DNA of 64,000 bases, from positions 2,132,001 through 2,196,000 of the forward strand of contig NZ_UHIO01000001.1 of assembly GCF_900460315.1 (NCBI RefSeq), given 5' to 3'. The notes beneath the pieces are model-generated. The model searched no databases. It saw only the letters and a list, made by a program, of their open reading frames with translations, and was not told the origin of the DNA. Shown here in pieces: positions 11,320-64,000 of the stretch (its first letter is position 1; every line of letters begins with the position of its first letter). This stretch comes from Veillonella criceti. GTDB lineage: Bacteria; Bacillota; Negativicutes; Veillonellales; Veillonellaceae. Made by a program: the position numbers and the translations under genes.

Positions 11320-11350
11320 GAATTATGGCATAGGTAAAAGCTTTGCTGAT

Positions 11351-11382
11351 GTAAGAACGTAAGAATGTAAGAACGTAAGAAA
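11351..11382 (+). repeat. four tandem octamers before the rng ribosome site
   Basis: The 8-base unit gtaagaaN is repeated four times (last base c, t, c, a) and runs directly into the AAGGAG ribosome-binding site of rng. Confidence 0.9.
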
Positions 11383-11392
11383 GGAGTTTGCC

Positions 11393-12823: not shown

Positions 12824-12856
12824 GAAGACTTAGGTTGCTAAGTCTTCTCTTTTTTT
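12823..12856 (+). terminator. intrinsic terminator after rng
   Basis: An 11-bp stem (agaagacttag / ctaagtcttct, 12823-12833 and 12838-12848) with a 4-base loop is followed by ctttttttat. Confidence 0.9.
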
Positions 12857-12942
12857 ATATAATATATAGGTTATCATTGCGCCCGATTGTTTAGGTGTAG
12901 ATACCGTAGAATTGCCCTAATCTTGAGAGAGGATGTCCGTAT

Positions 12943-13515
12943 ATGTCGATTTGGGAATTATCTTTGATTGCTATAAGTTTAGCTTTAGATGCCTTTGCCG
13001 TAGCTGTCGCTAAAGGACCGTGTTTAACGGATCGTGAAATTGCTAAAAAAGTAGGCATGCCTGTGTTATTCGGTGTATTTCAGATGATTATGCCAATTAT
13101 CGGTTGGCTTATTGGTGCTCAACTAGCAGGTAACATAGATGCGTATGATCATTGGATAATATTTGGTCTGTTAGCCTATTTAGGAATTAATATGATTCGA
13201 AATGGCAAAAAGGAAGAACGCGATGAGGACGATTTAATTATTTGTAGTCTTTTAACTTGGCGTGAAGTCTTAGTATTGGCCTTAGCGACTAGCATTGATG
13301 CGCTAGCTATAGGCTTAACGCTGGCTTTCTTTGATATAAATATTATAGCGGCTACCAGTCTCATTGGGATTGTGGCGTTTGTATTATCTTTAGCTGGCGT
13401 ATATTTGGGGCAACAGCTTAAAAAGATATTTGCTGGTGAGGCTGAAGTTGTTGGGGGCGTTGTATTAATTCTTATCGGTCTAAAAATATTGTTGCAACAT
13501 TTACAAATTATTTAA
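12943..13515 (+). CDS. mntP: manganese efflux pump, MntP family
   Basis: Small membrane exporter of Mn2+. The 190-aa protein has six hydrophobic spans and the two-fold DUF204 pattern, with SLALDAFAVAVAKG in the first half and TSIDALAIGLTLAF in the second; the Asp residues in these motifs are those expected to bind the ion. It is flanked by terminators on both sides, so it is a single-gene unit. The 85-base leader (12857-12942) is too short and lacks the features for a yybP-ykoY Mn riboswitch, which often controls this family elsewhere. Confidence 0.9.
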   Translation: MSIWELSLIAISLALDAFAVAVAKGPCLTDREIAKKVGMPVLFGVFQMIMPIIGWLIGAQLAGNIDAYDHWIIFGLLAYLGINMIRNGKKEERDEDDLIICSLLTWREVLVLALATSIDALAIGLTLAFFDINIIAATSLIGIVAFVLSLAGVYLGQQLKKIFAGEAEVVGGVVLILIGLKILLQHLQII

Positions 13516-13578
13516 GTAAAATAATAGTCATGGCTCGCTGTTAGTGGGCGTCTATCTCTTATGGTTTCAATAAATACT

Positions 13579-13609
13579 CGCAGTAAGTAGTTGACTTACT
13601 GCGTTTTTT
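13579..13609 (+). terminator. intrinsic terminator after mntP
   Basis: A 10-bp perfect stem (cgcagtaagt / acttactgcg), 5-base loop and six Ts. It separates mntP from the ribosomal-protein operon. Confidence 0.92.
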
Positions 13610-13639
13610 CATGTAAAATAAATTAGTCATAGTTTGGGT

Positions 13640-13745
13640 ACGCCCAGCTATTGCAGCCGCGTGGAGAGGTTTGTAAATGTCCCTCATTCCATCAGGCATG
13701 AGAGAATACCGTATTCAGCGAGTTCGAAAACAAGGAGGTGTCACA
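13640..13745 (+). promoter_or_regulatory. candidate L21 leader RNA before rplU
   Basis: The 130 bases between the mntP terminator and rplU hold no gene. They contain short inverted pieces such as gggtacgccc and ctcattccatcaggcatgag (stem ctcat / atgag). Firmicutes often have an autoregulatory L21 leader here. I cannot confirm the consensus by eye; the bounds are approximate. Confidence 0.35.
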
Positions 13746-14057
13746 ATGTACGCAATCATTAAAACTGGTGGTAAACAATATCGCGTTGCTGAAGGCGATG
13801 TAATTACTATCGAAAAATTGGAAGCAGCTGCTGAAGAAACTGTAACGTTTGACGAAGTATTAACTGTAGTTAATGACAGTGATGTTAAAGTAGGCGCTCC
13901 ACTTGTGGACGGTGCAAAAGTAACAGGTACAGTACTTGAACATGGTAAAGCGAAGAAGATTTTAGTTTTCAAATATAAAGCAAAATCCAACTATCGTCGT
14001 CGCCAAGGTCATCGTCAACCATTCACAAAAGTTCGCATTGAATCCATTCAGGCATAA
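13746..14057 (+). CDS. rplU: 50S ribosomal protein L21
   Basis: Structural protein of the large ribosomal subunit that binds 23S rRNA. The 103-aa product begins [18 protein letters not shown] and ends with the Arg/Lys-rich [17 protein letters not shown] segment typical of L21. ATG 13746 is chosen because AAGGAGGTG lies 7 bases before it; the open frame extends 23 codons upstream but that part is leader. It is the first gene of the rplU-prp-rpmA operon; the prp start is 3 bases after its stop. Confidence 0.97.
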
Positions 14058-14060
14058 GCT

Positions 14061-14375
14061 ATGATTCAGATTCAAATTAAACGTAATGAGGCACAACAGA
14101 TTGTAAAGTGTCACATTAGTGGACATGCTGATTATGATGAGCATGGCTATGATATTGTATGTGCGGCTGTCTCTGTGTTATCTTGTACGGCTATCTTAGG
14201 GCTGCAAGATATTGCTAAACAGGCAGGAACATATAACAATCATTCTGGTGAATGTACCATTTCATTAGAAGGGGATATCACTGAGAATGGACAGGCTATA
14301 TTGGCTACCATGAACCTTGGTTTACAAGAGATTGTTAGACAATATGGTGATTTTGTATCACTAAGTGAAACATAG
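14061..14375 (+). CDS. prp: ribosomal-processing cysteine protease Prp
   Basis: Protease that removes the N-terminal leader of ribosomal protein L27, an essential step in Firmicutes and relatives that have it. The 104-aa product (YsxB/DUF464 family) shows the conserved His in SGHADYDEHG (about residues 20-29) and the catalytic Cys in DIVCAAVSVLS (about 31-41). It lies between rplU and rpmA as usual, and its substrate L27 here indeed carries the cleavable leader, so enzyme and substrate are matched within one operon. Confidence 0.93.
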   Translation: MIQIQIKRNEAQQIVKCHISGHADYDEHGYDIVCAAVSVLSCTAILGLQDIAKQAGTYNNHSGECTISLEGDITENGQAILATMNLGLQEIVRQYGDFVSLSET

Positions 14376-14387
14376 GAGGTGAACGGA

Positions 14388-14672
14388 ATGTTTACTTTTG
14401 ATTTGCAATTATTTGCACATAAGAAAGGTGTATCTAGTACACGTAATGGTCGCGATAGCGAATCCAAACGTCTTGGCGTTAAATGCCATGATGGTTCCGT
14501 TGTAAAAAGCGGTAACATCATCGTTCGTCAACGTGGTACTCATTTCCACCCTGGTACTAATGTAGGTATTGGTAAAGATGATACTTTATTCGCATTAGTT
14601 CCTGGTAAAGTTGCTTTCGAACGTGCTGGTCGTTATAACCGTAAAGTTAGCGTATACCCAGTAGAAGTGTAA
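14388..14672 (+). CDS. rpmA: 50S ribosomal protein L27 with Prp-cleavable leader
   Basis: L27 sits near the peptidyl-transferase centre. The 94-aa precursor starts [20 protein letters not shown]; the LQLFA-H junction matches the Prp site (after the Ala of LQFFA in other Firmicutes), which would leave HKKGVSS as the mature N-terminus. ATG 14388 is used rather than GTG 14379, because the GTG is part of the taGGAGGTGA ribosome site. A strong terminator follows. Confidence 0.96.
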
Positions 14673-14682
14673 GTAAATAATA

Positions 14683-14723
14683 AGTCCCTATTAACTGAGT
14701 TATCAGTTAATAGGGGCTTTTTT
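14683..14723 (+). terminator. intrinsic terminator after rpmA, convergent with merR
   Basis: A 12-bp stem (ccctattaactg / cagttaataggg) followed by gcttttttt. Its T-tract overlaps the stop codon of the minus-strand merR gene by two bases, so the hairpin may serve both converging units. Confidence 0.9.
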
Positions 14724-15147
14724 ATGTTATAGTAGATTTTTTCTTAGCAATTAAAGATTGAATATATTCATGATTCCAGGTGCCTGCACCACCTTTTGAA
14801 AGATTTTTATAGTGATTGACTTTTTGATTCAGTATGTCGAGTTGTACTTGTAGTTCGTTTAATTGTGATATAGTTTTATCGCGTTGTTCTTGCATTAATT
14901 TGAGGCGTTCGGAGAGGGTGACATCTCCTTTTTTGTATAAATCAAAATAGTGCTTTATCTTTTTTAAATTCATTCCTGTATCACGAAGTACTAAAATCAT
15001 AAAAATCCATTCTAAATCATTGTCATCAAATAGACGCGTGTTTGCTTGCGAACGTTTTGCATAAGGGATTAACCCTAAATCATCATAATAACGAATTGTG
15101 TGAACTGAAAGTTTAAAAATTTTAGCAACATCTTTAACAGTATACAT
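14722..15147 (-). CDS. MerR family transcriptional regulator
   Basis: DNA-binding activator of the MerR type, 141 aa. The N-terminal winged helix-turn-helix is clear (YTVKDVAKIFKLSVHTIRYYDDLGLIPY, residues 2-29), then a wing (RLFDDNDLEWI) and a long coiled-coil dimerisation helix (about 76-115). No Cys pair of metal sensors is visible, so it more likely senses an organic or redox signal. It follows the Old Yellow Enzyme-like gene by 34 bases on the same strand, and the promoter upstream of that gene has the 19-base spacer that MerR proteins act on, so autoregulation of the pair is likely. Confidence 0.9.
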   Translation of the reverse strand: MYTVKDVAKIFKLSVHTIRYYDDLGLIPYAKRSQANTRLFDDNDLEWIFMILVLRDTGMNLKKIKHYFDLYKKGDVTLSERLKLMQEQRDKTISQLNELQVQLDILNQKVNHYKNLSKGGAGTWNHEYIQSLIAKKKSTIT

Positions 15148-15181
15148 ACTTACTCCTAATAATTTAAAATTATTTTTTCTT

Positions 15182-16285
15182 TTATAAAATTCTGTCTGGG
15201 TTGATAGCCGCTAAGAACTCAAAGGCGCCATCAGAAATTTGCAATGTATCTTTTTCGATAGGCGACATAGTATGGCGGATTGAATCATCTTGGTGAGTAA
15301 GAATTTTTTGAATCCAATGTGGATCTAGTAAAATAGCAGAACCTATAGCTGCTATATCAGAGTGTTGTAGGGCGGCTTCTAAATCTTTACGAGTATGGAT
15401 TTGGCCTACAGAAATTAAAGGGATACGGCCGTTAATTGTTTCATAAATATATTGTAGCATGGATTTCTCTTGATAGTCTGGTAGATTTGTTTTTCCGTGA
15501 AAGTATGTTAGTGAGAGATGCAAATAATCAAGATCTGTGTCAGCTAATTTATCGACTAGCCACAGAGTTTCTTCTAAATTATAGCCTGGGGTAGTTTCTT
15601 CACGCGGTGAAATGCGATAACCTACAATAAAATTTTGTGGTGCTAATTCATCCACTGTTGCTAAAACTGCATCAACTACTTCTCTTATAAATTGATAACG
15701 CTTTTCTAAACTGCCACCGTATTTATCAGTACGTCGATTACTGTGTGGTGAAAAGAATTGTTGTAATAAGAAATGATTAGCACCATGAAGTTCTATACCA
15801 TCAAAACCAGATAAGATAGCTCGCCTTGTAGCTTCTTTAAAGTTTTGGATAATGTCTTCAATGGATTCGATGGTAAGTTCTTTAGATATTTCAGCATTTG
15901 GTCTATTGGCAGGAACTTTACTAGGTGCAACGATAGGTAGCCCTTGTAAAGTTTGGCTATTTGTCATACGTCCAGCATGAAAAATTTGTAAAATAGCACG
16001 GGAGCCATTTTCTTTAATGGCAGCGGCAAGTTTACTTAAGCCAGGAATACAGTCATCAGAATGGACACCTAGTTCTCCAGTCCAACCGATACCATCAGGT
16101 TGTATATAGGCTACTCCAGTAATGAAAAGACCAGTTTCGCCAGTTCGACTAGCATAATAGTTTATTTCGTCGTTGGTTACTTTACCGTTAAAATAACTCA
16201 TACGCGTTGTCATTGGTGCGATAGCAATACGATTTTTAATAGTGAGTCCATGTTTAAATGTGATAGGATTAGTAAATTGTTTCAT
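15182..16285 (-). CDS. Old Yellow Enzyme-like NADH:flavin oxidoreductase
   Basis: FMN-binding TIM-barrel reductase of 367 aa. Seen are the N-terminal NPITFKHGLTIKNRIAIAPMTT block, QIFHAGRMTN, the substrate/FMN motif GFDGIELHGANHFLLQQFFSP with the two conserved histidine-region residues, and SNRRTDKYGGS. Such enzymes reduce activated C=C bonds of enones and electrophiles or nitro compounds; the actual substrate here is unknown. Only the OYE barrel is present, with no C-terminal Fe-S/FAD dienoyl-CoA reductase part. Control by the adjacent MerR gene points to an inducible stress or detoxification role. Confidence 0.9.
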   Translation of the reverse strand: MKQFTNPITFKHGLTIKNRIAIAPMTTRMSYFNGKVTNDEINYYASRTGETGLFITGVAYIQPDGIGWTGELGVHSDDCIPGLSKLAAAIKENGSRAILQIFHAGRMTNSQTLQGLPIVAPSKVPANRPNAEISKELTIESIEDIIQNFKEATRRAILSGFDGIELHGANHFLLQQFFSPHSNRRTDKYGGSLEKRYQFIREVVDAVLATVDELAPQNFIVGYRISPREETTPGYNLEETLWLVDKLADTDLDYLHLSLTYFHGKTNLPDYQEKSMLQYIYETINGRIPLISVGQIHTRKDLEAALQHSDIAAIGSAILLDPHWIQKILTHQDDSIRHTMSPIEKDTLQISDGAFEFLAAINPDRIL

Positions 16286-16402
16286 ATAATACCTCCCGAT
16301 ATTAAAAAATAAGAATTTATAGAATCATAGATATTTCTATAGTTTAAAATATATAATTAATGTATATAGTGAGTAGAGGGGAAATTTGACTCTCTATAAT
16401 TA

Positions 16403-16433
16403 AGAATAAGGGCTCGAGTTAACTCGAAGTCAA
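16403..16433 (-). promoter_or_regulatory. MerR-type promoter with operator (minus strand)
   Basis: Read on the minus strand: TTGACT (16433-16428), a 19-base spacer, TATTCT (16408-16403). The spacer begins with a perfect 14-base palindrome, tcgagttaactcga (16414-16427). A 19-base spacer with dyad symmetry between the -35 and -10 boxes is the signature of MerR-controlled promoters. Predicted 5' leader to the reductase start: about 110 bases. Confidence 0.8.
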
Positions 16434-16479
16434 GTTTTCAAATATATGTAAAATAATGCAGTATCTTAGAGCCGTGCTA

Positions 16480-16508
16480 TTTTCAAAAGTGGAGAAAGAG
16501 TGTATAAT
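16480..16508 (+). promoter_or_regulatory. candidate promoter of hydG
   Basis: TTTTCA (16480-16485) and TATAAT (16503-16508) with a 17-base spacer. It would give a leader of about 150 bases. Confidence 0.45.
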
Positions 16509-16530
16509 TAATACATATTCAAGAGATTCA

Positions 16531-16645
16531 ATATAGTAGAAACGAAGTGCATACGTGGTATGCTCAACCTGAATAGACTATCAAAGTGTAGATGGTTATT
16601 GTAGCTCATATTAGGGAAAGGCGAGCGCACAGGGTTTCGCTATGG
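16531..16645 (+). ncRNA. structured leader upstream of hydG (unidentified)
   Basis: Possible RNA element: an outer pairing atag..aaac with gttt..ctat closes a junction that holds a perfect 6-bp hairpin (gcatac gtg gtatgc, 16549-16563) and a second stem (gactatc / gatggtt). It does not match any riboswitch consensus I can recall. Bounds and structure are read by eye. Confidence 0.35.
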
Positions 16646-16664
16646 TAGAGTAAAGGAGATCAAT

Positions 16665-18083
16665 ATGTATGATGTAAAATCCTCCAAGGCGGAAGAATTT
16701 ATTAATCACGAAGAGATTTTAGATACCTTAGCCTATGCTGAGGCCAATAAAGAGAACCGAGAATTGTTAGATCAAATCTTGGCAAAAGCAGCGACGTATA
16801 ACGGCTTGACTCATCGTGAAGCAGCTGTATTATTGGAATGTCCATTGCCTGAGTATAAAGAGAAATTATTTGCGTTGGCAAAGGAAATTAAACAAAAGAT
16901 TTATGGGGATCGTATTGTATTATTTGCCCCTTTATATTTATCTAATTACTGTGTAAATGGTTGCGTATATTGCCCATATCATGCTAAGAATCGCCATATT
17001 GCACGTAAGAAATTAACACAAGAACAAGTGCGTGAAGAAGTCTTAGCGTTAGAAGCTATGGGACATAAACGTATCGTTATTGAATCTGGTGAAGACCCTG
17101 TTAACAATCCATTAGAATATATTTTAGAATGTATTAAGACAATCTATAGTATTAAAAATAAAAATGGTGAAATTCGCCGTGTTAATGTTAATATTGCAGC
17201 TTGTGAAGTAGAAGATTATAAAAAACTTCATGAAGCAGGCATTGGTACGTATACTTTATTCCAAGAAACCTATAATAAAGAAAACTATGAAGCTCTTCAT
17301 CCACATGGGCCAAAGAGTAATTATGCATATCACACAGAAGCTATGGACCGTGCTATGAAAGGCGGTATTGATGATGTAGGGATTGGCGTATTGTATGGTC
17401 TTGAACATTATCGCTATGATTTTGTAGGCTTGTTGATGCATGCGGAACATTTGGAAGCTGTTTTTGGGGTAGGGCCTCACACAATCAGTGTGCCTCGTAT
17501 TTGTCCGGCTGATGATATTGATGTAGATGATTTTAGCAATGCGGTGCCAGATGATATTTTTGAAAAAATCGTAGCATTAATTCGTGTATCTACACCATAT
17601 ACAGGTATGATTATGTCTACTCGTGAAAGCCAACGTATGCGTGAACGTGGTTTAGCACTTGGTATTTCTCAGATTAGTGGTGGTTCTCGTACTAGTGTTG
17701 GTGGCTATAAAGAAGAAGAGTTGCCAGAAGATAATTCGGCACAATTTGATACAAGTGACCGTCGTAGCTTAGATGAAATTGTGGATTGGCTATTAGAACT
17801 TGGTTATGTACCAAGCTTCTGCACCGCTTGTTATCGAGCAGGGCGTACAGGCGACCGCTTTATGGCGTTAGCGAAGAGTGGCCAGATTCATAACTGTTGC
17901 CAGCCAAATGCATTGATGACATTGAATGAGTATTTACTTGATTATGCATCTGATGAAACGAAGGCGACAGGGGAAGCTGTTATTGAAAAACAACTTCATA
18001 AGATTAAAAATGAAAAAGTAAAAGAAGCATCGACTAATTATATTAAACAAATGGAACATGGGGAACGAGATTTCCGTTTCTAA
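16665..18083 (+). CDS. hydG: [FeFe]-hydrogenase maturase HydG
   Basis: Radical-SAM tyrosine lyase that makes the CO and CN ligands and an Fe(CO)2CN synthon for the H-cluster of [FeFe]-hydrogenase. The 472-aa protein has the N-terminal cluster motif CVNGCVYC (CX3CX2C, Cys 96/100/103) and the C-terminal CX2CX22C motif (CTAC near 386-389, Cys near 412) that binds the auxiliary cluster and distinguishes HydG from ThiH. Length is typical. HydE, HydF and the hydrogenase itself are not adjacent. A ribosome site AAAGGAGAT precedes the ATG. Confidence 0.94.
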   Translation: MYDVKSSKAEEFINHEEILDTLAYAEANKENRELLDQILAKAATYNGLTHREAAVLLECPLPEYKEKLFALAKEIKQKIYGDRIVLFAPLYLSNYCVNGCVYCPYHAKNRHIARKKLTQEQVREEVLALEAMGHKRIVIESGEDPVNNPLEYILECIKTIYSIKNKNGEIRRVNVNIAACEVEDYKKLHEAGIGTYTLFQETYNKENYEALHPHGPKSNYAYHTEAMDRAMKGGIDDVGIGVLYGLEHYRYDFVGLLMHAEHLEAVFGVGPHTISVPRICPADDIDVDDFSNAVPDDIFEKIVALIRVSTPYTGMIMSTRESQRMRERGLALGISQISGGSRTSVGGYKEEELPEDNSAQFDTSDRRSLDEIVDWLLELGYVPSFCTACYRAGRTGDRFMALAKSGQIHNCCQPNALMTLNEYLLDYASDETKATGEAVIEKQLHKIKNEKVKEASTNYIKQMEHGERDFRF

Positions 18084-18150
18084 TATAATTGTTAATGAAT
18101 TGCTGTACAATAAACGTTTTATATACGCTATAAACAAATAGGAATGATAG

Positions 18151-18192
18151 AGAATGAGTGGTTATAAATTGATAATCGCTCATTCTTTTTTT
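18151..18192 (+). terminator. intrinsic terminator after hydG
   Basis: Stem agaatgag / ctcattct with an inner stem ggttat / ataatc, followed by seven Ts. Confidence 0.88.
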
Positions 18193-18363
18193 ATAGTTTT
18201 AAATATCTCGTATTGAGAAAAAGAATAGAAAAGAGTTTAATTTAATTGGTAAATGATGTATAATAAAATATATTGAGAATGATAATACACTATTTTTAAA
18301 TGAATATTTTTAATATTGAGATTGAAATTCGATACCTGAATATATAAGTGAGACGAGATAGAT

Positions 18364-20355
18364 ATGAGACAGAGTAAAGCAAAACGATGGCGCTTAGCAA
18401 CAGGTAATGAACAAGCCGAACGCGAGTTAGTACGTCATTTAGGCGTATATCCTGTAGTGGCTAAGCTATTAGTAAATCGGGGCATCGATACAGTAACAGC
18501 TGGGCAAGATTTTTTATATGGCACAGTGAATGATTTATTAGATCCATATGACTTAAAAGGTATGGCCGAAGCCGTGCCCTTAATTCAACAGGCCATTGAA
18601 GAACAGCAACGAATTGTTATATATGGCGATTATGATGTAGACGGTATTACGGCGACCTCTTTGATGTATCGCTTTTTGGTACGCTGTGGAGCTAATGTGA
18701 GCTATTATATACCGGAACGTCAAAGTGAAGGCTATGGACTTAATGCAGAGGCTCTCGAGCATATTATTGAGCAAGGTACTGAACTTGTCATCACAGTAGA
18801 CTGTGGTATTAGTTCGTATGATATTGTAGAAGCAGTTCGTAATCGGCTGACTATGATTATTACCGATCATCATACAGCACCACCAGATATTCCACGGGCA
18901 GCGGCCGTCATTAATCATAAACAGCCAGGTTGTCCTTATAAAGATAAGAATTTATCTGGTGTAGGGGTGGCGTTTAAGTTGTGCCAAGCGCTTTGGCGAG
19001 AACGTACAGGCGAAGCCTATTTAGAAGATTTAGATATTGTGGCTTTGGGTACTGTGGCTGACGTAGTTCCTCTAGTTGGCGAAAATCGTATTATTGTTCG
19101 TGAAGGTCTTAAGAAAATGACAGAATCGCCAAACCTTGGTATTGCGGCCTTAGTAGAAGTGGCAGGCCTAGGGGGGCGTAAATTAACGACGGGTCATATT
19201 GGCTTTACGTTGGCCCCACGACTTAATGCAGCCGGTCGTGTAACTCATGCAACGCGAGCCGTAGAGCTTTTAATCACGAAAGATATAGCCACGGCTAATA
19301 CGATTGCAGAAGAGTTACAAGCGACGAATCAAGAGCGACAACTCATTGAACGGTTAATTCACGAAGAGGCGCGGCTTGATGTAATTAATCAAGGTGAGGA
19401 AGCGAATAAGGTCATTGTAGTGGCTGGTGAGAATTGGCACTCAGGTGTGATTGGGATTGTGGCCTCACGCTTAGTTGAGGAGTTTTATCGTCCCGCGATG
19501 GTGATTAGTATTCATGATGGCATTGGTAAGGGATCATGCCGTAGTATAGAAAATTGTAATATTTACGAAGCCTTAAAGTCGGCTGAAGATTTACTGTTAC
19601 AGTTTGGTGGGCATAAGCAAGCGGCTGGCTTTAGTATTACTGCTGAGAATATTCCTGCTTTACGTCAACGCTTAACGGCTTATTGTGAAGCTAATTTAAC
19701 GGAAGAAGACTATGTCCCTATTATTGATATTGATACGCCTTTAGAGCCGGCTGAAGTGACCGTAGAGTTGGTGGATCAAATTGAAACATTAGAGCCTTAT
19801 GGTATGGGGAATAGTACACCTGTATTTTCTATTGATCCCATAGCAGTGCAAGATGTGTTTTTATTAGGGCAACAAAAGAACCATTGCAAGATTATTTTAC
19901 AGTCACAAGTCGGGCCTTTAGATGCAATTATTTGGCATGGGGCTGACTATCATCGGGAGATTTTTCCAGATGAAAAGCTAAAGGTGGCGTTTGCCTTACA
20001 AAAAAATGAATGGCAAGGTCGCGTTTCACCACAATTAATGGTACAAGATTTAGCTCTTTTAGGGGAGCAACGAGCGCATTTAACAGCGGAAGGATTACGT
20101 GAAATGTATGTCATTGTACGCAGTGTATTCCGCAGTGCCACGGCGCCTCGCTATATTGTCGAATCAGAAGTGTTACATCGTCATCCAGAGAATCAGACCG
20201 ACAAAGAGGCTATGTTAGCCTTAGACGTTTTTAAAGAATTGGGAATTTTACAAGAAGAAGCAACGGAAGATGGGATGGCTTTGTATCGTTGGTGTCATGT
20301 GAAAGAAAAATTAGAATTGATTACGTCATTGACGTTTCTAAAATACAGTGCTTAA
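18364..20355 (+). CDS. recJ: single-stranded-DNA-specific exonuclease RecJ
   Basis: 5'-3' exonuclease on single-stranded DNA used in recombination and mismatch/base-excision repair. The 663-aa protein carries the DHH phosphoesterase motifs IYGDYDVDGITATSL (about residues 84-98), VDCGIS and TDHHTAPPDIPRA, the DHHA1 block LAPRLNAAGR and GGHKQAAGFS, and an OB-fold near the end. The C-terminal extension of about 100 residues is common in Firmicutes. A weak promoter (TTTAAT-17-TATAAT, 18236-18264) lies upstream. It starts a run of tightly spaced genes that reaches aspS. Confidence 0.95.
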   Translation: MRQSKAKRWRLATGNEQAERELVRHLGVYPVVAKLLVNRGIDTVTAGQDFLYGTVNDLLDPYDLKGMAEAVPLIQQAIEEQQRIVIYGDYDVDGITATSLMYRFLVRCGANVSYYIPERQSEGYGLNAEALEHIIEQGTELVITVDCGISSYDIVEAVRNRLTMIITDHHTAPPDIPRAAAVINHKQPGCPYKDKNLSGVGVAFKLCQALWRERTGEAYLEDLDIVALGTVADVVPLVGENRIIVREGLKKMTESPNLGIAALVEVAGLGGRKLTTGHIGFTLAPRLNAAGRVTHATRAVELLITKDIATANTIAEELQATNQERQLIERLIHEEARLDVINQGEEANKVIVVAGENWHSGVIGIVASRLVEEFYRPAMVISIHDGIGKGSCRSIENCNIYEALKSAEDLLLQFGGHKQAAGFSITAENIPALRQRLTAYCEANLTEEDYVPIIDIDTPLEPAEVTVELVDQIETLEPYGMGNSTPVFSIDPIAVQDVFLLGQQKNHCKIILQSQVGPLDAIIWHGADYHREIFPDEKLKVAFALQKNEWQGRVSPQLMVQDLALLGEQRAHLTAEGLREMYVIVRSVFRSATAPRYIVESEVLHRHPENQTDKEAMLALDVFKELGILQEEATEDGMALYRWCHVKEKLELITSLTFLKYSA

Positions 20356-55910: not shown

Positions 55911-56000
55911 GAGGAAACTTGGACACTCCAATTTAAATTATTATTCTTTAATTAGTCTGTTTCAGAATCTAAACAAATCTAATATTTTAGAAAATTGTTT
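55911..56000 (+). promoter_or_regulatory. ompM1 leader element (two stems)
   Basis: Block gaggaaacttggacactcc contains the hairpin ttgga cac tccaa (55919-55931), 94 nt before the start codon. A second stem aaacaa / ttgttt (55971-55976 and 55995-56000, with an inner tctaa / ttaga) ends in tttttatt right before the ribosome site ccgaaagggg. The same design recurs before ompM2. Confidence 0.6.
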
Positions 56001-56024
56001 TTATTCCGAAAGGGGCAATTAATT

Positions 56025-57317
56025 ATGAAAAAACGTTTTGCAGCCGTATTCGCAGCAACTGCTGTACTTGGTGTAACTACTGCTTTCGCAGCTAATCCAT
56101 TCTCTGATGTAACTCCTAATGATTGGGCATACCAAAGTGTAGCGCAATTAGCACAAGCTGGTGTAATCAATGGTTACCCAGATGGCACTTTCAAAGGCCA
56201 GAACAACATCACTCGTTACGAAATGGCTCAAATGGTAGCTAAAGCTATGGCGAATGAATCTCGTGCTAATGCAGAACAACAAGCTATGATTAACCGTTTG
56301 GCTAATGAATTCTCTGAAGAATTAAATAACTTAGGTGTTCGCGTTGCTGACTTAGAAAACAAAGTAGGTAATGTAAAAGTAACTGGTGACGCTCGTCTTC
56401 GTTATGAAGGTTCCGATACAAAAGGAATGATTAGCTCTGAAAATAAAGATAAAAAATCTTTATTCGATATGCGTGGCCGTGTACAATTCAATGCTAACGT
56501 AAATGACAATACATCCGCTGTTATCCGTGTAACAAGTGGTGATATGGAATTTGGCGATGCTAAAAACTCTGCTGATGTAGAATTTGATCGCGTATATGTA
56601 GCTCATAAATTTGGTAAAGATACAACCGCTGTAGCTGGTCGTTTCGGTGCTGTAGTTGGTAATGGTTTAGTATACGATGATACATTCGATGGTGCTGGCC
56701 TTACTTATGACAACGGTAACTTCTCCGCAACTGCTGCTTATGGTTCCTTCATGGAAGGCGGCTTATTTGATAATGCAGACAATAGCCGTAAATATGCTAC
56801 TGGGTATAATTTTACTGATGAAACTGCTGATAGCAACCCAACTGTTACTATCTTACAGGCAAAAGGTAAACTTGGTGAACATGCAACCTTAGGTGGTTTC
56901 TATACCTTTGGGAATAAGAACTTTGATAATGACATCTACGGTGGTTCCTTAGACCTTAACTTTGATAAAGTTTGGATCGGTGGTGAATATGCAACATTCG
57001 CTGATGAAGATGGTGTTGTAAAATCTGATGATAAAGATGCATGGGTAGCTGGTATTGGTTATGGTGACTATGATATTGCTAAACAAGGTACTTGGGGTGT
57101 TAAAGTTCAATACTTTGATGAAGGTAAATACTCTCCAGTAGTAAGCTCCACTTGGAATCAGCCATACAACAGCGATTACAAAGCTTGGATGGCTAGCGTT
57201 GATTACGCATTAGCTGATAATGTAGGTCTTTCTGGTTACTATACATTTAATGCAGAAGACCAAAGCGGTAATGAATTAGGTGATTACTACCGTGCAGAAT
57301 TAAACTACAAATTCTAA
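56025..57317 (+). CDS. OmpM-type outer-membrane porin with SLH domain, copy 1
   Basis: Outer-membrane protein of 430 aa: signal peptide MKKRFAAVFAATAVLGVTTAFA, one SLH domain (ANPFSDVTPNDWAYQSVAQL to about residue 75) that in Negativicutes binds polyamine-modified peptidoglycan and so ties the outer membrane to the wall, a short coiled coil (about 80-115), and a porin-like beta-barrel with a C-terminal aromatic residue (YRAELNYKF). ATG 56025 follows GAAAGGGG. It is a close paralogue of the next gene: the first 120 residues are nearly identical, while several barrel loops differ. Confidence 0.92.
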   Translation: MKKRFAAVFAATAVLGVTTAFAANPFSDVTPNDWAYQSVAQLAQAGVINGYPDGTFKGQNNITRYEMAQMVAKAMANESRANAEQQAMINRLANEFSEELNNLGVRVADLENKVGNVKVTGDARLRYEGSDTKGMISSENKDKKSLFDMRGRVQFNANVNDNTSAVIRVTSGDMEFGDAKNSADVEFDRVYVAHKFGKDTTAVAGRFGAVVGNGLVYDDTFDGAGLTYDNGNFSATAAYGSFMEGGLFDNADNSRKYATGYNFTDETADSNPTVTILQAKGKLGEHATLGGFYTFGNKNFDNDIYGGSLDLNFDKVWIGGEYATFADEDGVVKSDDKDAWVAGIGYGDYDIAKQGTWGVKVQYFDEGKYSPVVSSTWNQPYNSDYKAWMASVDYALADNVGLSGYYTFNAEDQSGNELGDYYRAELNYKF

Positions 57318-57693: not shown

Positions 57694-59064
57694 ATGAAAA
57701 AACGTTTTGCAGCCGTATTTGCAGCAACAGCTGTACTTGGCGTAACAACTGCATTCGCAGCTAACCCATTCTCCGATGTAACTCCTAACGATTGGGCATA
57801 CCAGAGCGTAGCTCAATTAGCAGCAGCTGGTGTAATCAACGGTTACCCAGATGGCACTTTCAAAGGCCAGAACAACATCACTCGTTACGAAATGGCTCAA
57901 ATGGTAGCTAAAGCTATGGCTAACGAAGCTCGTGCAAACGCTGAACAACAAGCTTTGATTAACCGTTTAGCTGACGAATTCTCCAGCGAATTAAACAACT
58001 TGGGCGTTCGTGTTGCTACTTTGGAAAACAAAGTTGGTAACGTAAAAGTTACTGGTGATGCTCGTCTTCGTTTCCAAGGTTTTGAAGATAAAGGTAACTT
58101 CGCTCATTGGGATGTTAATGATAAAGACGAAGATGTTGTAAAAGGCGATAAAGATAAAAAATCCAAATTTGACTTCCGTGGTCGTGTACAATTCAATGCT
58201 AACGTAAATGATAATACTTCTGCAGTAGTACGTTTAGTTGGCTCAGGTGAATTCCATAACGCTAACGATTCTGGTGATGTAACTTTTGATCGTGTATATG
58301 TTGCTCATCAATTTGGTGAAGACACTAGTGCTGTAATTGGTCGTTTTGGTGCAGTTGTTGGTAATGGCTTAATTTACGATGATACTTTTGATGGTGCTGC
58401 TTTAGCATACGATAATGGTAAGATTCAAGCTTTAGCTGCTTATGGTTCTTTCCAAACTGGTAATCTATTCCAGAACTATGATAACAGTGATTTAGAAGAC
58501 GACTTCTTCATCCAAGATGCTGGTGTTGATTTCGAAAATAACACTACTAAAACTAACCCAACTGTAACGTTGTTACAAGTTAAAGGTAATTTAGGTGAAC
58601 ATGCAACTTTAGGTGGTTTCTACGCTTTTGGTAATAAAGATATTGACACTGATATCTATGGTGGTTCCTTAGATCTTCAATTCGATAAAGTTTGGATTGG
58701 TGGCGAATATGCTACATTCTCTGACGATACAATTGAAGCATTTGGTAAAAAAATTGCCACTGATGGTGAAAATGATGGCAATGATGCTTGGATTGCAGGT
58801 ATTGGTTTTGGCAACTATAACATCAAAGAACAAGGTACTTGGGGTGTTAAAGTTCAATACTTTGATTTAGCTAAACATTCTCCTGTAATTAGCTCCACTT
58901 GGAATAACCCATATAATAGCGATTACAAAGCTTGGATGGCTACAGTAGATTATGCATTGGCTGAAAACGTAGGTCTTTCTGGCTACTGGGCATTTAACGG
59001 CGAAGATCAAGATGGCAATGACCTTGGTGACTTCTACCGTGCAGAATTAAACTACAAATTCTAA
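57694..59064 (+). CDS. OmpM-type outer-membrane porin with SLH domain, copy 2
   Basis: Paralogue of copy 1, 456 aa, with the same signal peptide, SLH domain (NPFSDVTPNDWAYQSVAQLA) and C-terminal barrel ending FYRAELNYKF. Compared with copy 1 it has insertions in exposed-loop regions, e.g. around residues 128-146 and 263-290 (acidic DNSDLEDDFFIQDAGVDF), consistent with loop variation after tandem duplication. It has its own promoter and leader. An insertion sequence lies 41 bases after the stop and cuts the gene off from its natural terminator. Confidence 0.92.
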   Translation: MKKRFAAVFAATAVLGVTTAFAANPFSDVTPNDWAYQSVAQLAAAGVINGYPDGTFKGQNNITRYEMAQMVAKAMANEARANAEQQALINRLADEFSSELNNLGVRVATLENKVGNVKVTGDARLRFQGFEDKGNFAHWDVNDKDEDVVKGDKDKKSKFDFRGRVQFNANVNDNTSAVVRLVGSGEFHNANDSGDVTFDRVYVAHQFGEDTSAVIGRFGAVVGNGLIYDDTFDGAALAYDNGKIQALAAYGSFQTGNLFQNYDNSDLEDDFFIQDAGVDFENNTTKTNPTVTLLQVKGNLGEHATLGGFYAFGNKDIDTDIYGGSLDLQFDKVWIGGEYATFSDDTIEAFGKKIATDGENDGNDAWIAGIGFGNYNIKEQGTWGVKVQYFDLAKHSPVISSTWNNPYNSDYKAWMATVDYALAENVGLSGYWAFNGEDQDGNDLGDFYRAELNYKF

Positions 59065-59105
59065 TCTTATTTGATAAGGCTTTAATATGTAGTCAAAATA
59101 AAACA

Positions 59106-60511
59106 GGCTCTTTGTCAAATTTTGGGGCGCTAAAGAGATTATGCACTCTTGGAAAGGACATGCGACATAGTTGTTGCGTGTCCTTTTTTAGCATTAATGA
59201 ATAAAATCCGGTTACGAAATCGTTCAAAGTTTTGTAAACCAAACGAACACCGCTTTAGTACTTTTATTTTGTTGTTACAACCTTCTGTAAAGCCATTGGA
59301 ATAGGGTAATGTTAAGGCATTAATAATTTCGGTTCTCCAAAATGTAAATGTTTTTAAGAGTGATTGAAACTCAGGTAATTCAGAAGCCTCAACTAAGGAT
59401 AGCCATTGATCAATGGCCCATTGAATATTTTCTTTATCTTTGAATTTTAAAACATGAGAAAAGGATTGTTTTAGTGTATAGGCACGATGTAATCGGGGCG
59501 AATAATGAAACATATCCATAAGTTTAGTAAACTCTTTGTCTGTTAATGATTCAAAGCGTTTAGTTAATACTCGTTTATTGGCTTTAAATGTACGACTTAC
59601 ATTACATAATAGATTTTGCTCTACTTTGCGTACCCGCTCTAAGGCAAAGGTAACTAACCGTATTAAGTGAAATCTATCGGCTACAATTTCAGCTTGGGGA
59701 ACCAAGATTTCATAACCGAACGAAATTGAAGAGACATATCCATTGTGATGTATTTTACATTATTTCGTATATATCTAGGGAATTGAGCAAAGTATTTCGC
59801 TAGTTCCGTAGTATCTCGTTTAGGCAGAATATCTAGTATTTTATGCGTTTCTGGATCAGTAAGAATGACTTGGTATTTTTGACCAGCTGCATTGCCTTTG
59901 AATTCATCAATAGATAGTACAGGTGGTAGTGTTGAGGGGCGACTATAGTTAATTTCGTTAAAGACTCTTAGTACTTGGTTTACGCTTACATGGCAATGCT
60001 TAGCCACAGCTTGGTAAGATGTTACTTCAGAGAGTTGTTGACATATTACTTCACGAAGTCTTGGGGTTGTTCTAAGATAGCGAGAAGAAAACTCTGTTTT
60101 TTCATTGAAAGTGCGTCCGCACGTGCATATATAACGACGTTGACGATATAAGAGAAGAATGGTTTTTTCATTCGCTGTAGTATGCTGAATTTTTCGGTTA
60201 GTATAGCCTTTTATTCGTGTAGTTTGTGAATGGCAATTAGGGCATCTATGAGGACGTACAGGACTTTCTACGTAAAGTAAGTATTCTGAGCTAGTTTCAC
60301 GCATATTTTTTATATATTCTGCTTTGATTCCGAGTAAATTTCCTATATAATTAAGTGTAGACATATTGAGTAAACATCCTTTCATAATGGTTTCGTCGCT
60401 TTTATTGTAACGGATTTTATTCAATATGTCTTTTTTTATATAAAAAAGTAGGCGCCAAGAGGACACGCAGTTTGCGTTTCTCTTTAGCGCCCCAAAATAA
60501 ATTATAGAACC
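59106..60511 (-). mobile_element. ISL3-family insertion sequence, copy A (1406 bp)
   Basis: The left tip begins ggctctttgtcaaa and shares attttggggcgctaaagaga with the inverted right end (right tip reads ggttctataattta outward, imperfect). An exact 8-bp target duplication, ataaaaca, flanks it at 59098-59105 and 60512-60519. The transposase gene is on the minus strand and is frameshifted. 8-bp duplications are usual for ISL3 elements. Confidence 0.92.
59139..60364 (-). pseudogene. ISL3-family transposase, frameshifted
   Basis: Compared with copy B (62145-63383) the gene is split: the N-terminal part (from MSTLNYIGNLLGIKAEY) runs into LKL and a stop near 59681, and the C-terminal part resumes in another frame at AEIVADRFHLIRLVTFALE. 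The break is at a G-run (59696-59699 on the plus strand), where one base is missing: WFPQAEI becomes WFPKLKL. Domains otherwise complete: zinc finger (CPNCHSQTTRIKG, CTCGRTF), HTH, and DDE residues in SIDEFKG, ITMDMS and FTEGCNN. A true indel or a homopolymer sequencing error are both possible. Confidence 0.88.
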
Positions 60512-60514
60512 ATA

Positions 60515-60547
60515 AAACAACCACTTCCTTTGGGAGTGGTTGTTTTT
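60515..60547 (+). terminator. displaced terminator of ompM2
   Basis: Arms aaacaaccacttcc / gggagtggttgttt with a 3-base loop and tttt. Joining the bases before and after the IS, with one target copy removed, puts this terminator about 34 bases after the ompM2 stop. Confidence 0.85.
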
Positions 60548-60550
60548 GTA

Positions 60551-60586
60551 TGTACAGCCGATTAGTCATGCCTATTCGGCTGTACA
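60551..60586 (+). repeat. 36-bp imperfect palindrome
   Basis: tgtacagccga..tag and cta..tcggctgtaca pair over 14 of 15 positions, loop tcatgc. No T-tract follows. Nature unknown. Confidence 0.75.
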
Positions 60587-60623
60587 TATAGAAAGCGGGT
60601 TATAGGACAAAATGTGTTGCTGT

Positions 60624-60667
60624 AAAAGGCGATGAACCTAGTAGTTATCTAGGCTCATCGCCTTTTT
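60624..60667 (+). terminator. strong hairpin inside the IS left end
   Basis: Arms of 18 bases (aaaaggcgatga.cctag / ctagg.tcatcgcctttt) with one mismatch, 7-base loop and ttttt. Between the IS tip and the transposase; it could stop read-through from outside. Confidence 0.85.
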
Positions 60668-60795
60668 AAGTTTTTTTGAAGAAGTTAGAGGTCGGACAAA
60701 ATGTGTTGCTAAAAATGCTGAAAGCACTTGCAATTACTGACTTAAATGAGGTTTTATCTTCCTAGAAATAATAAATTTAGGAGGATTGCATAGTC

Positions 60796-61917
60796 ATGCG
60801 TATAAAATGTATTAATTGTGGATTTTCGTGTAAAAAGAATGGAAAGACAAGTGCCGGAACTCAACGTTGGTATTGTAATCATTGTAAGTCTTCCTTTATC
60901 TATACAATAGATAATTCAGCTAAGCAGTTAAAGATATTTCAAAATTGGTTATTTAGTAAACAAAGTCAAAAGGTAATGCCTGGTAAAGGCCATACGTTTC
61001 GTAGAAAGTCATCCGTGTTTTGGGATATATGGCCTATGCCATCTAAAATAGAAGAACAACGAAATATTGTATTTGTTGATGGAATTTATTTATCTAAGAA
61101 AGCCTGCATTCTTATTTGCTGTGACGAAAAACATGTTCTAGGATGGTATCTTTGTCGTTATGAACATTCTAAAGCTTGGGAAGCTTTATTGAGACGAATC
61201 AGAGAGCCCATTCTAGTTGTTTCAGATGGTGGAACAGGTTTTAAAAAAGCATTAAAAAAAGTTTGGCCGAAAGCCAAACATCAGCGGTGTACGTTTCATG
61301 CATTTTGTCAGGTAAAGAAGTATACAACTAGCAGGCCTAAAACTTTGGCAGGATTTGAATTATATACCCTTGCTAAAGATTTGTTACATATAGAGAGTAA
61401 AGATCAAGCTGTTATTTGGATTACTAGATTAACTAATTGGAAAATAAAGCATAAAGAGTTTTTGAGTGAAATGACCAGAGACGAATCAGGAACTCTTAGA
61501 CCTACTCATGAGCGTTTACTTAAGGCTGAATACTCGTTAATTAGACTTGTAAAAACGAATACGTTATTTACTTATCTTGAGAGTCCTTTTGCCGAGGCGC
61601 GGAACCTTCCAGCAACTAATAATCGGATTGAAGGAGCTGTTAATGCTCAACTCAGAGCCATGCTTAGATTCCATAGAGGGCTATCTATTGAAAGAAGAAT
61701 AAAAGCGGTTTTTTGGTGGTGTTATTTACACTCACCGAAACCGCTTTCAGCTTCTGAAATTTTAAAAGTAATGCCTACAGACAAGAGTATTGCGAAGCTT
61801 TATTCCGATATGAGTACCAAAGCCCAATTAGAAGCTTCAATTCCTACTTGGGGAGATGCTATTCTTTGGGGTGATTTGCATAATTATGATTCTCTTCCTG
61901 ATAATTATTGGGACTAA
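60796..61917 (+). CDS. transposase, IS256/IS1249-like
   Basis: Full-length 373-aa transposase. An N-terminal zinc finger (CINCGFSCKKNGKT, WYCNHCKSSF) is followed by a DDE catalytic domain: Asp in IVFVDGIYL (near residue 95), Asp in LVVSDGGTG (near 147), and Glu in NNRIEGAVNAQLR (near 276). This set matches the IS1249 group of the IS256 family. AGGAGG precedes the ATG. Flanked by perfect inverted repeats, so it appears active. A palindrome in its coding sequence (61702-61747) is conserved in the second copy. Confidence 0.88.
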   Translation: MRIKCINCGFSCKKNGKTSAGTQRWYCNHCKSSFIYTIDNSAKQLKIFQNWLFSKQSQKVMPGKGHTFRRKSSVFWDIWPMPSKIEEQRNIVFVDGIYLSKKACILICCDEKHVLGWYLCRYEHSKAWEALLRRIREPILVVSDGGTGFKKALKKVWPKAKHQRCTFHAFCQVKKYTTSRPKTLAGFELYTLAKDLLHIESKDQAVIWITRLTNWKIKHKEFLSEMTRDESGTLRPTHERLLKAEYSLIRLVKTNTLFTYLESPFAEARNLPATNNRIEGAVNAQLRAMLRFHRGLSIERRIKAVFWWCYLHSPKPLSASEILKVMPTDKSIAKLYSDMSTKAQLEASIPTWGDAILWGDLHNYDSLPDNYWD

Positions 61918-61944
61918 TCAGCAACACATTTTGTCCTATAACCC

Positions 61945-61999
61945 TAGAAAGCGGTCTAGGTGAGTGCATATAGCACCACCAATAGACCGCTTTTAATCG
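61945..61999 (+). repeat. stand-alone copy of the IS1249-type transposase hairpin
   Basis: These 55 bases are identical to 63544-63598, an internal piece of the minus-strand IS1249-type transposase gene (58 bases if the ata left of copy A is counted). They form aaagcggtcta / tagaccgcttt with an inner gtg.gtgc / gcac.cac stem, then ttttaat. The right side is cut by ISL3 copy B. Confidence 0.9.
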
Positions 62000-63352
62000 G
62001 CTCTTTGTCAAATTTTGGGGCGCTAAAGAGAAACGCAAACTGCGTGTCCTCTTGGGCCTACTTTTTTATATAAAAAAAGACATATTGAATAAAATCCGTT
62101 ACAATAAAAGCGACGAAACCATTATGAAAGGATGTTTACTTAATATGTCTACACTTAATTATATAGGAAATTTACTCGGAATTAAAGCAGAATATATTAA
62201 AAATATGCGTGAAACCCGCTCAGAATACTTACTTTACGTAGAAAGTCCCGTACGTCCTCATAGATGCCCTAATTGCCATTCACAAACTACACGAATTAAA
62301 GGCTATACTAACCGCAAAATTCAGCATACTACGGCGAATGAAAAATCAATCCTGCTCTTATATCGTCAGCGTCGCTATATATGCACGTGTGGACGTACTT
62401 TCAATGAAAAAACAGAGTTTTCTACTCACTATCTTAGAACAACCCCGAGACTTCGTGAAGTAATATGTCAACAACTCTCTGAGATAACATCCTTCAAAGC
62501 TGTTGCTAACCATTGCCATGTAAGCATAAACCAAGTACTCAGAATCTTTAGAGAAATTAAGTATAGTCGGCCTAGCAACTTGCCAACCGTATTATCTATT
62601 GATGAGTTCAAAGGAAATGCAGCGGGTCAGAAATACCAGGTCATTCTTACTGATCCAGAATCTCATAAAATACTCGATATCTTGCCCAAACGAGATACTA
62701 CAGAATTAGCTAAATACTTTGCTCAATTTCCTAGATACATTCGAAACAACGTAAAATACATTACTATGGATATGTCACTTCAATTTCGTGCTGTTATGAA
62801 AACTTGGTTCCCTCATGCGGAAATTGTAGCTGATAGGTTCCACCTAATACGCCTAGTTACCTTTGCATTAGAACGTGTACGTAAGTCAGAACAAAATTCA
62901 TTATGTAATGTAAGTCGTACCTTTAAAACCAATAAACGAATACTAATTAAACACTTTGAAGCATTAACAGATAAAGAGTTTAACAAGCTTATGGATATGT
63001 TCCATTATTCGCCACGATTACATCGTGCCTATTCACTAAAACAAGCATTTTCTCGCGTTTTAAAATTTAAAGATAACGCAAATTTACAATGGGCCCTCGA
63101 TCAATGGCTCTCCTTAGTCGCTAGTTCTGATTTACCTGAATTTCAATCACTCTTAAAGACCTTTAACTTTTGGCGAAATGAAATTATTAATGCCTTAACT
63201 TTACCCTATTCAAATGGCTTTACAGAAGGCTATAACAACAAAATAAAGGCTCTTAAACGTTGTTCGTTTGGTCTACAAAACTTTGAACGATTTCGTAACC
63301 GGATTTTATTCATTAATACAGAAAAAGGACACGCAACAACTACGTTGCATGT
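61999..63352 (+). mobile_element. ISL3-family insertion sequence, copy B, 3' end interrupted
   Basis: The left tip ggctctttgtcaaa and attttggggcgctaaagag match copy A. The element runs rightward until an IS1249-type element starts at 63353; the remaining right end and its target duplication would lie outside the window. First 8 bases to the left: ttttaatc. Confidence 0.88.
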
Positions 63353-63383
63353 GGGTTATAGGACAAAAAGTGTGTGTGGCTAA
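62145..63383 (+). CDS. ISL3-family transposase with altered C-terminus
   Basis: Transposase with an open frame from MSTLNYIGNLLGIKAEY (ATG 62145 after AAAGGATG; ATG 62124 possible). Zinc finger (CPNCHSQTTRIKG, CTCGRTF), HTH and DDE residues (SIDEFKG, ITMDMS, FTEGYNN) are intact. The end is chimeric: after KGHATTTLHV the frame passes into the inserted IS1249-type element and adds GYRTKSVCG before a stop, in place of the native ending (HVLSKSA in copy A). The catalytic core is unaffected, so the enzyme may work, but the IS right end is separated from it. Confidence 0.88.
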   Translation: MSTLNYIGNLLGIKAEYIKNMRETRSEYLLYVESPVRPHRCPNCHSQTTRIKGYTNRKIQHTTANEKSILLLYRQRRYICTCGRTFNEKTEFSTHYLRTTPRLREVICQQLSEITSFKAVANHCHVSINQVLRIFREIKYSRPSNLPTVLSIDEFKGNAAGQKYQVILTDPESHKILDILPKRDTTELAKYFAQFPRYIRNNVKYITMDMSLQFRAVMKTWFPHAEIVADRFHLIRLVTFALERVRKSEQNSLCNVSRTFKTNKRILIKHFEALTDKEFNKLMDMFHYSPRLHRAYSLKQAFSRVLKFKDNANLQWALDQWLSLVASSDLPEFQSLLKTFNFWRNEIINALTLPYSNGFTEGYNNKIKALKRCSFGLQNFERFRNRILFINTEKGHATTTLHVGYRTKSVCG

Positions 63384-64000
63384 TCCCAATAAGTAGGAAA
63401 TTCTGTAGATTTATGAAGCTCATTCCATGCAAGTCCATCACCCCATTGAGGGATAGAATAATCTACTTTATTTCGTTCATTAAATCGTTGATAGATAAGC
63501 GAAATAGATTCATCTGTGGGCATAACTTTTAATATTTCAGATATAGAAAGCGGTCTAGGTGAGTGCATATAGCACCACCAATAGACCGCTTTTAATCGTC
63601 TCTCAAGAGATAATCCTCTATGTGATCTTAACATATCTCTTAATTGTGCGTTTACGCCACCCTCTATGTAGTTATTAGTTGTAGGCACTGAAATATCTGC
63701 CATCTCAATAAAAGTAAATAAAGTATGCTGTTTAACAAGCTTTAATAAGGAACTTTCAGCTTTTAATAAACGCTCATGAGTAGAGCGTTTATTACCATTT
63801 TCATCGGTAGTCATTTCTTGGAGAAACGTATTATACACGGTTCTCCAATTTCTTAGTTTTTCAATCCATGCACAAGCAGATTCTGATGTTTTCACCCAAA
63901 ATAACTCACGTGCAATCAAATATAAATCTCTACCCGCCATTGTCTTAGGGCGACTTGTTGTATATCGTCTAACTTGGCAAAAAGCATGAAATAAACATCT
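63380..64000 (-). CDS. transposase, IS256/IS1249-like, C-terminal part (5' end outside window)
   Basis: The frame stays open to the window edge (codons for HAFCQVRRYTTSRPKT precede the Met at 63940), so only the C-terminal part is seen. It aligns with the copy A transposase throughout: SRPKTMAGRDLYLIAREL, THERLLKAESSLLKL, NNYIEGGVNAQLR (catalytic Glu) and WWCYMHSPRPLS. The sequence is clearly diverged from copy A, so this is a different subtype rather than a recent duplicate. Confidence 0.88.
   Translation of the reverse strand, partial: RCLFHAFCQVRRYTTSRPKTMAGRDLYLIARELFWVKTSESACAWIEKLRNWRTVYNTFLQEMTTDENGNKRSTHERLLKAESSLLKLVKQHTLFTFIEMADISVPTTNNYIEGGVNAQLRDMLRSHRGLSLERRLKAVYWWCYMHSPRPLSISEILKVMPTDESISLIYQRFNERNKVDYSIPQWGDGLAWNELHKSTEFPTYWD
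63541..63598 (-). other. hairpin within the IS1249-type transposase gene
   Basis: 11-bp stem tagaccgcttt / aaagcggtcta with inner stems, inside the codons for KAVYWWCYMHSPRPLS. Copy A has the matching structure at 61702-61747 (aaagcggttt / aaaccgcttt). Confidence 0.75.

Follow-up and report, generated by a model that had tools for sequence, protein, structure and literature searches.

A terminator-like hairpin written in the transposase codons of IS1249-group insertion sequences from Veillonella and related Bacillota

The right end of a 64,000-nucleotide stretch of the Veillonella criceti genome (contig NZ_UHIO01000001.1, positions 2,132,001 to 2,196,000; hereafter the window) carries two insertion sequences (IS) of the IS1249 group, copies A and B, and in both transposase genes the codons for K-A-V-[FY]-W-W-C-Y-M-H-S-P-x-P-L-S spell out a long hairpin. 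Comparison with relatives showed that the pairing of this hairpin is selected at the nucleotide level. With U-rich tails beside its stem on both strands, it resembles a bidirectional intrinsic terminator, at which release of RNA polymerase would be predicted. We consider it somewhat probable that this terminator-like element stops untranslated, chiefly antisense, transcription and that, together with a second hairpin at the left end, it insulates the element.

The long hairpin in these codons, first recognized in an initial annotation of the window, folds far below dinucleotide shuffles on either strand. The stretch in copy A reaches -21.6 and -20.4 kcal/mol on its two strands (z -5.9 and -5.0), and that in copy B -31.1 and -29.1 kcal/mol. 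The paired stem changes between the copies noted at the same time, T-A to C-G and T-G to A-T, were confirmed and joined by a third, T-A to C-G, beside the loop. The element's right end is about 195-240 bp away from the hairpin, which occupies about 1105-1145 of 1345. A longer stem with AGAAG-CTTCT was considered and falls outside the consensus fold. Coordinates of all features are collected in Table 1.

Table 1. Features of the insertion sequence nest, in window coordinates
Feature	Position	Strand	Details
ISL3 copy 1	59106-60511	-	strand is that of the transposase; ends from repeat and end comparisons
IS200/IS605-type left-end remnant	60562..60587	-	borders approximate; next to stand-alone hairpin
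Left target duplication TAGAAAGC of IS1249 A	60589..60596	.	from element ends and sequence
IS1249 copy A	60597..61944	+	from ends and target duplication; 1348 bp with an 8-bp duplication; ends ambiguous by 2 bp
Left-end terminator-like hairpin of IS1249 A	60628..60662	+	-20.3 kcal/mol; tail 4.3
IS1249 transposase gene A	60796..61917	+	NCBIfam NF033544, 486.6 bits, cut-off 300
Hairpin in transposase gene A	61702..61747	+	fold z -5.9; synonymous z -4.8, rank 1 of 362 windows; antisense tail 4.3
Right target duplication TAGAAAGC of IS1249 A	61945..61952	.	foot of stand-alone hairpin
Stand-alone hairpin, remnant of B-type transposase gene	61948..61993	-	55 bases identical to B
ISL3 copy 2	61999..63352	+	interrupted by IS1249 B; 5' end with distal-type inverted repeat
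Terminator-like hairpin of ISL3 element	63329..63352	-	target of IS1249 B; duplication TTGCATGT at 63345-63352
IS1249 transposase gene B	63380..64000	-	continues past window; full gene L011:5381-6493
Hairpin in transposase gene B	63547..63592	-	fold z -8.0/-7.5; synonymous z -6.1, rank 1 of 369 windows

Relatives of the two elements were found partly through the peptide KAV[FY]WWC, one of two search patterns, which fixes amino acids but not codons; 80 of 176 were kept. The fold was compared with synonymous recodings in a set of IS1249 transposase genes reduced to 63 by dropping identical ones and open frames shorter than 200 aa; each gene was recoded 300 times, keeping the protein and drawing codons from the same gene, and was scored in 48-nt windows. 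The hairpin was present in 45 of the 63, its 48 nt folding at -21.6 to -29.1 kcal/mol. Every one of these 45 genes has the hairpin as its most stable window (rank 1), with a synonymous z of -2.6 to -7.1 and at most 4 of 300 recodings folding as low. The remaining 18 genes lack such a fold, and the best rank that this stretch attains within any of them is 5 (L069).

Codon choice at the foot of the stem tells the same story. For K-A-V and P-L-S to be encoded with Watson-Crick pairing there, the codons must be AAA, GCG, CCG and CTT. Among 22 representatives sharing less than about 80% identity (21 of which gave the consensus fold), AAA, GCG and CCG are each used by all 22 and CTT by 21, as against 3, 6, 8 and 0 of 16 outgroup genes. 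The mean usage of these codons in the same genes is 0.61, 0.14, 0.24 and 0.26, respectively, making the last three minor codons. Along the gene, synonymous conservation in the representatives peaks in the hairpin part.

The valine codon and the codon facing it across the stem also covary, with a mutual information of 1.11 bits over 29 distinct hairpins that none of 20000 permutations equalled. GTC accompanies a facing AGA in 9 of 9 cases and GAG in 7 of 8 (in a shifted pairing register), while GTT accompanies AAA in 4 of 4 and GAA in 3 of 4; single cases join GTG with AAC, GTA with AAT and GTA with GAT, and the sole row with AAG (L077) has GTC and pairs poorly. When one fixed register is imposed, 94.0% of cells pair; none of 500 shuffles reached the covariation score. 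The initial annotation had proposed aligning many IS1249-group genes for synonymous-site conservation and covariation, and both are present at the hairpin; together with recoding and codon choice they support the view that conservation here goes beyond what the protein imposes.

A tree of 47 transposases, from which 12 near-copies and rows shorter than 290 aa were omitted, places the hairpin as the mark of one Bacillota clade. Twenty-nine rows with the hairpin and two without it, from Veillonella sp. CHU740 (L050) and a Lachnospiraceae genome (L069), group together across a branch with 100/100 support, so that 29 of 31 rows in the clade carry it; many of the relatives found are from Veillonella. 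The 16 outgroup rows, 15 from Actinomycetota (Coriobacteria and kin) and one from a Clostridiales genome, are without it. Mapped on the tree, presence of the hairpin takes three changes, and one gain followed by two losses is a possible history. Only one of 299 genomes sampled across the phylum gave a match at E 1e-60, that of the window itself, and no plasmid copy of the hairpin was found at E 1e-3.

Several features point to a terminator-like element. The stem-loop is stable and has a G+C-rich foot, as in an intrinsic terminator. Beside the stem, antisense U averages 7.45 per 15 nt against 6.15 expected under synonymous choice (Z 4.5; outgroup Z -1.0), and sense U 5.09 against 4.11 (Z 4.4; outgroup Z -0.7). 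When the U measure was scanned along the gene, with an undefined value at one or more offsets, the sum at the hairpin was reached at 2 of 301 offsets, namely 0 and 1 (the hairpin and the next codon). A terminator search over the whole element listed the hairpin in all 30 hairpin-clade rows as an antisense site (tail 2.7-4.3), in 25 of them also as a sense site, and in none of 10 rows without the hairpin. In 20 of the hairpin-clade rows it also listed a second terminator-like site, which follows the left inverted repeat at bases 28-64, and a few rows show additional weak sites. The initial annotation had offered a bidirectional terminator as one possible function, and the U-rich tails on both strands, on which the resemblance to such an element rests, lend that idea support. 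It had also raised a separate regulatory RNA, for which no evidence was found: no Rfam family reached its gathering score, the best of three matches at E up to 1 scoring 25.2 bits against a gathering score of 50.

In the mechanism we favour, RNA polymerase entering from the right flank would make an untranslated antisense RNA, in which the hairpin would fold and stop the polymerase. On the sense strand, ribosomes trailing the polymerase would hold the hairpin open on the transposase mRNA. The left-end hairpin would guard the other side, leaving the element insulated from outside transcription. The second terminator may need a position within the gene because the stop codon lies so close to the element end (27 bases in copy A). 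We infer the emphasis on antisense transcription, the translation gate and the benefit to the element from these sequence patterns. Ribosome gating of a terminator inside a gene is made plausible by an engineered case: in PMC4824070, a terminator (tR2) placed in the latter part of a coding region is repressed, ribosomes repress terminators near stop codons, and uncoupling translation abolishes that latter repression.

A number of observations weigh against this proposal. The sense tail is U-enriched as well, and termination there would lower transposase output if translation did not prevent it. Elements of the outgroup manage without the hairpin, and so do two of the clade, L050 and L069; in L050 the search over the whole element found no other terminator-like site. 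The left-end site was not listed at bases 28-64 in 10 of the 30 hairpin-clade rows. The tails are moderate, and a strict promoter and terminator scan (5 T in 8) returned none of the in-gene hairpins. As to the pairing itself, the number of pairs changed on both sides (3) was matched by 80 of 500 shuffles and that of further pair types (9) by 327 of 500; moreover, the representatives share ancestry, so that the Z values and permutation counts are overstated.

The hairpin is also a place where other elements insert, as the initial annotation had surmised in proposing a target site; as a fact of insertion this holds, with IS1249 A (its TAGAAAGC duplication exactly at the foot, as claimed there), an ISL3 end and IS200/IS605 ends all at hairpin feet. 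The preference extends beyond this hairpin. Perfect 8-10 bp duplications flank 46 of 65 distinct IS1249 end pairs, and these 46 sites were used for the tests; some of the other 19 pairs are wrongly paired ends. At 15 of the 46 sites the duplication is centred no more than 8 nt from a terminator-like foot, compared with 2.5% of control positions drawn from the flanks of those sites. This criterion was chosen after weak hairpins (-10 kcal/mol, no T-tract) had given a marginal result, in which 18 of the 46 sites and 25% of intergenic positions fell within that distance (p 0.026). When hairpins were counted more loosely, the figures were 23 of 46 sites and 486 of 2050 controls, and in a shift test 12 sites scored at the true position, 12 at -4 and 2-8 elsewhere.

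Two IS200/IS605 groups of the Veillonella family (tnpA with Y1_Tnp scores of 141 and 138.5 bits) insert 3' of terminator-like hairpins at most of their sites (e.g. L195-L244 and L250-L278). After repeats, short flanks and variant ends were dropped, the left end stood directly 3' of a hairpin at 38 of 40 distinct sites in the first group (control 82 of 596) and at 21 of 24 in the second (control 75 of 480); some of these sites could go back to one ancestral insertion shared by related species. Distal ends of ISL3 elements faced a hairpin in 7 of 11 cases (control 35 of 220), a preference that rests on these 11 flanks and in which one of the 7 is the stand-alone hairpin described below. The transposase hairpin itself is the target of three IS200/IS605 insertions: in the window; in another genome of the same family (G020), where the same left end lies next to the hairpin in a decayed IS1249 transposase gene; and in Veillonella rogosae (L095), where the second group lies just 3' of an intact transposase hairpin. 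These hits fall in different transposase copies in different genomes, and we thus read them as independent. In a further case, upstream of the transposase at L127 (G025:C3), an IS1249 copy appears to sit inside the left-end terminator-like hairpin of another IS1249.

Such targeting raises the possibility that the hairpin is kept as an imitation of favoured terminators, a landing pad or decoy through which insertions strike existing copies of the element and not host genes. If a mimic of this kind arose as a landing site directed at the element itself, or serves as one today, it would limit copy number and spare the host while also insulating the element. Both the clustering of IS1249 duplications at terminator-like feet and the ends found at the transposase hairpin (IS1249 A, ISL3 and three of IS200/IS605) fit this picture. 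We regard it as unlikely: a hit would truncate the receiving transposase, making selection for being hit hard to justify; a single IS1249 insertion into the hairpin was seen in 28 genomes, in which only the window's two of 7 junction matches lie in the hairpin; and two outgroup elements (L100, L101) also sit at hairpins and yet lack this one themselves.

Control on the sense strand, by which a folded transposase mRNA would attenuate expression, stall ribosomes or protect the message, could draw on the strong sense RNA fold and the U-enriched sense tail. We consider this unlikely as well. G-U pairs are equally rare on the two strands (39 of 624 sense and 38 of 634 antisense, in 32 rows of which two are outgroup), which argues against selection for a sense-only RNA; antisense and sense folds depart to a like extent from their synonymous nulls (mean z -4.8 and -4.4); and among the 25 rows listed on both strands the antisense tail is the higher in 24 and tied in one. 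That pairing is mostly Watson-Crick would equally suit a DNA-level element, a cruciform or protein-binding palindrome required in cis for transposition, but this leaves the U-rich tails on both strands unexplained, outgroup elements as well as L050 and L069 lack the hairpin, and no likeness to the inverted repeats was seen (by eye only), so that we hold such a role to be quite improbable. A by-product of protein constraint, or chance, is rejected as highly improbable: KAV[FY]WWC is indeed one of the two conserved stretches used as search patterns, but at most 4 of 300 recodings reach the observed fold, minor codons are invariant, codons covary, and the same KAV[FY]WWCY is encoded in the outgroup by sequences that do not give the fold.

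With a terminator-like hairpin as a favoured target, the separate copy in the window can be accounted for. The initial annotation had reported a 55-base piece (61945-61999) identical to copy B over just this hairpin and outside any transposase gene, which is correct for full transposase genes; the ungapped repeat extends to 60 bases with one mismatch. On one side the piece stops at the ISL3 end (61999); on the other it met an IS200/IS605 left end until IS1249 A arrived. It is debris, cut out by elements that favour terminators. A B-type gene would have been struck at the feet of its hairpin by IS200/IS605, by ISL3 and then by IS1249 A, leaving the stand-alone copy behind. The suggestion that it is a functional stand-alone copy was thus not borne out, remains of nested insertions being the outcome that the initial annotation had itself set against it. 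No dispersed stand-alone copies were found in 28 genomes of the family, and the window's own genome holds only two, in duplicate blocks. Other places with the hairpin coincide with transposase matches, the exceptions being a piece of a decayed transposase (G020 C19) and an IS1249 end truncated where its contig ends (G024 C15). A stand-alone mobile repeat, such as a miniature inverted-repeat transposable element (MITE) or a repetitive extragenic palindromic (REP)-like sequence, is rejected, since no such scattered copies occur in the 28 genomes.

The right-hand end of the window holds a nest of insertion sequences adjoining two tandem similar genes, in the order ISL3 copy 1, IS1249 A, stand-alone hairpin, ISL3 copy 2 and IS1249 B. 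The two genes (55995-57317 and 57694-59064), which we take to be porin-like, share stretches with as much as 89% identity. The nest, together with a porin-like gene, belongs to a block of at least 8.2 kb that occurs twice in inverted orientation, 99.9% identical, near both contig ends (window 58000-64000 and beyond, L011 1-8232, and G000:C1 at about 10836-19066, L012). The inverted duplicate carries the nest again, and the two stand-alone copies in the genome therefore represent one event.

IS1249 B starts at 63353 and extends beyond the window; it sits within ISL3 copy 2, and its TTGCATGT duplication falls in that element's own terminator-like hairpin. The duplication of IS1249 A, TAGAAAGC, is 8 bp, or 10 bp if the bordering GG is counted. 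Both transposases score above the NF033544 cut-off (467.2 bits for full-length B, cut-off 300) and both copies have target duplications of about 8 bp, so their membership of the IS1249 group is ordinary. At IS1249 left ends, for example in copy A (window about 60600-60715), the inverted-repeat core (GGACAAAATGTGTTGCT) appears again about 90 bases deeper in the element, behind the left-end hairpin. For the IS200/IS605-type remnant, query positions 64 to about 96 recur in other genomes of the family, with the same core in 40 distinct sites, and an intact element bearing the same left end has a tnpA of the IS200/IS605 type. Around the remnant, a palindrome TATGTACAGCCGA..TCGGCTGTACATA spans 60549-60588, and the rest of the element is gone. 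ISL3 copy 2 carries a distal-type repeat (61999-62031) at its transposase-proximal end, unlike other copies seen, which are of the type GGTTCTATAATTTATTTTGGGG; this suggests recombination between copies.

A literature search by title and abstract opening, covering few subscription journals, returned no description of the hairpin, nor of IS1249 or these IS200/IS605 elements at terminators. The elements share the 8-bp target duplications and inverted repeats of the type GG[GC]TTATAGGACAAAA with the IS1249 group of the IS256 family (NF033544), from which they differ in that the in-gene hairpin is confined to one Bacillota clade in the rows examined. Group IIC introns insert at terminator hairpins, with a stem-loop plus T-tract as their target. 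The insertions described here use the same kind of target, but are made by IS200/IS605, ISL3 and IS1249 elements, and a transposase gene contains one of the targets. In IS10 and IS50, an RNA structure hides the start of transposase translation and shields the element from outside transcription. That structure likewise keeps outside transcription from acting on the element, but it lies at the start of translation, whereas the IS1249 hairpin is terminator-like and lies near the 3' end of the coding sequence. The tR2 experiments of PMC4824070 likewise have a repressed terminator inside the latter coding region, and terminators near stop codons that ribosomes repress, but their constructs were engineered, whereas the IS1249 hairpin is natural, conserved and maintained by codon choice. 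To our knowledge, an in-gene terminator-like hairpin would be a new form of shielding of insertion sequences against outside transcription.

In these elements the same DNA encodes both a protein, the transposase, and a terminator-like hairpin, whose codons covary across distant relatives. The arrangement suggests that a terminator can sit within a gene if translation protects the sense message. The insertion sites indicate that terminators are a shared target of the IS200/IS605, ISL3 and IS1249 elements in these bacteria, and the insertions of these elements could thus be used as a natural readout of what acts as a terminator in the cell.

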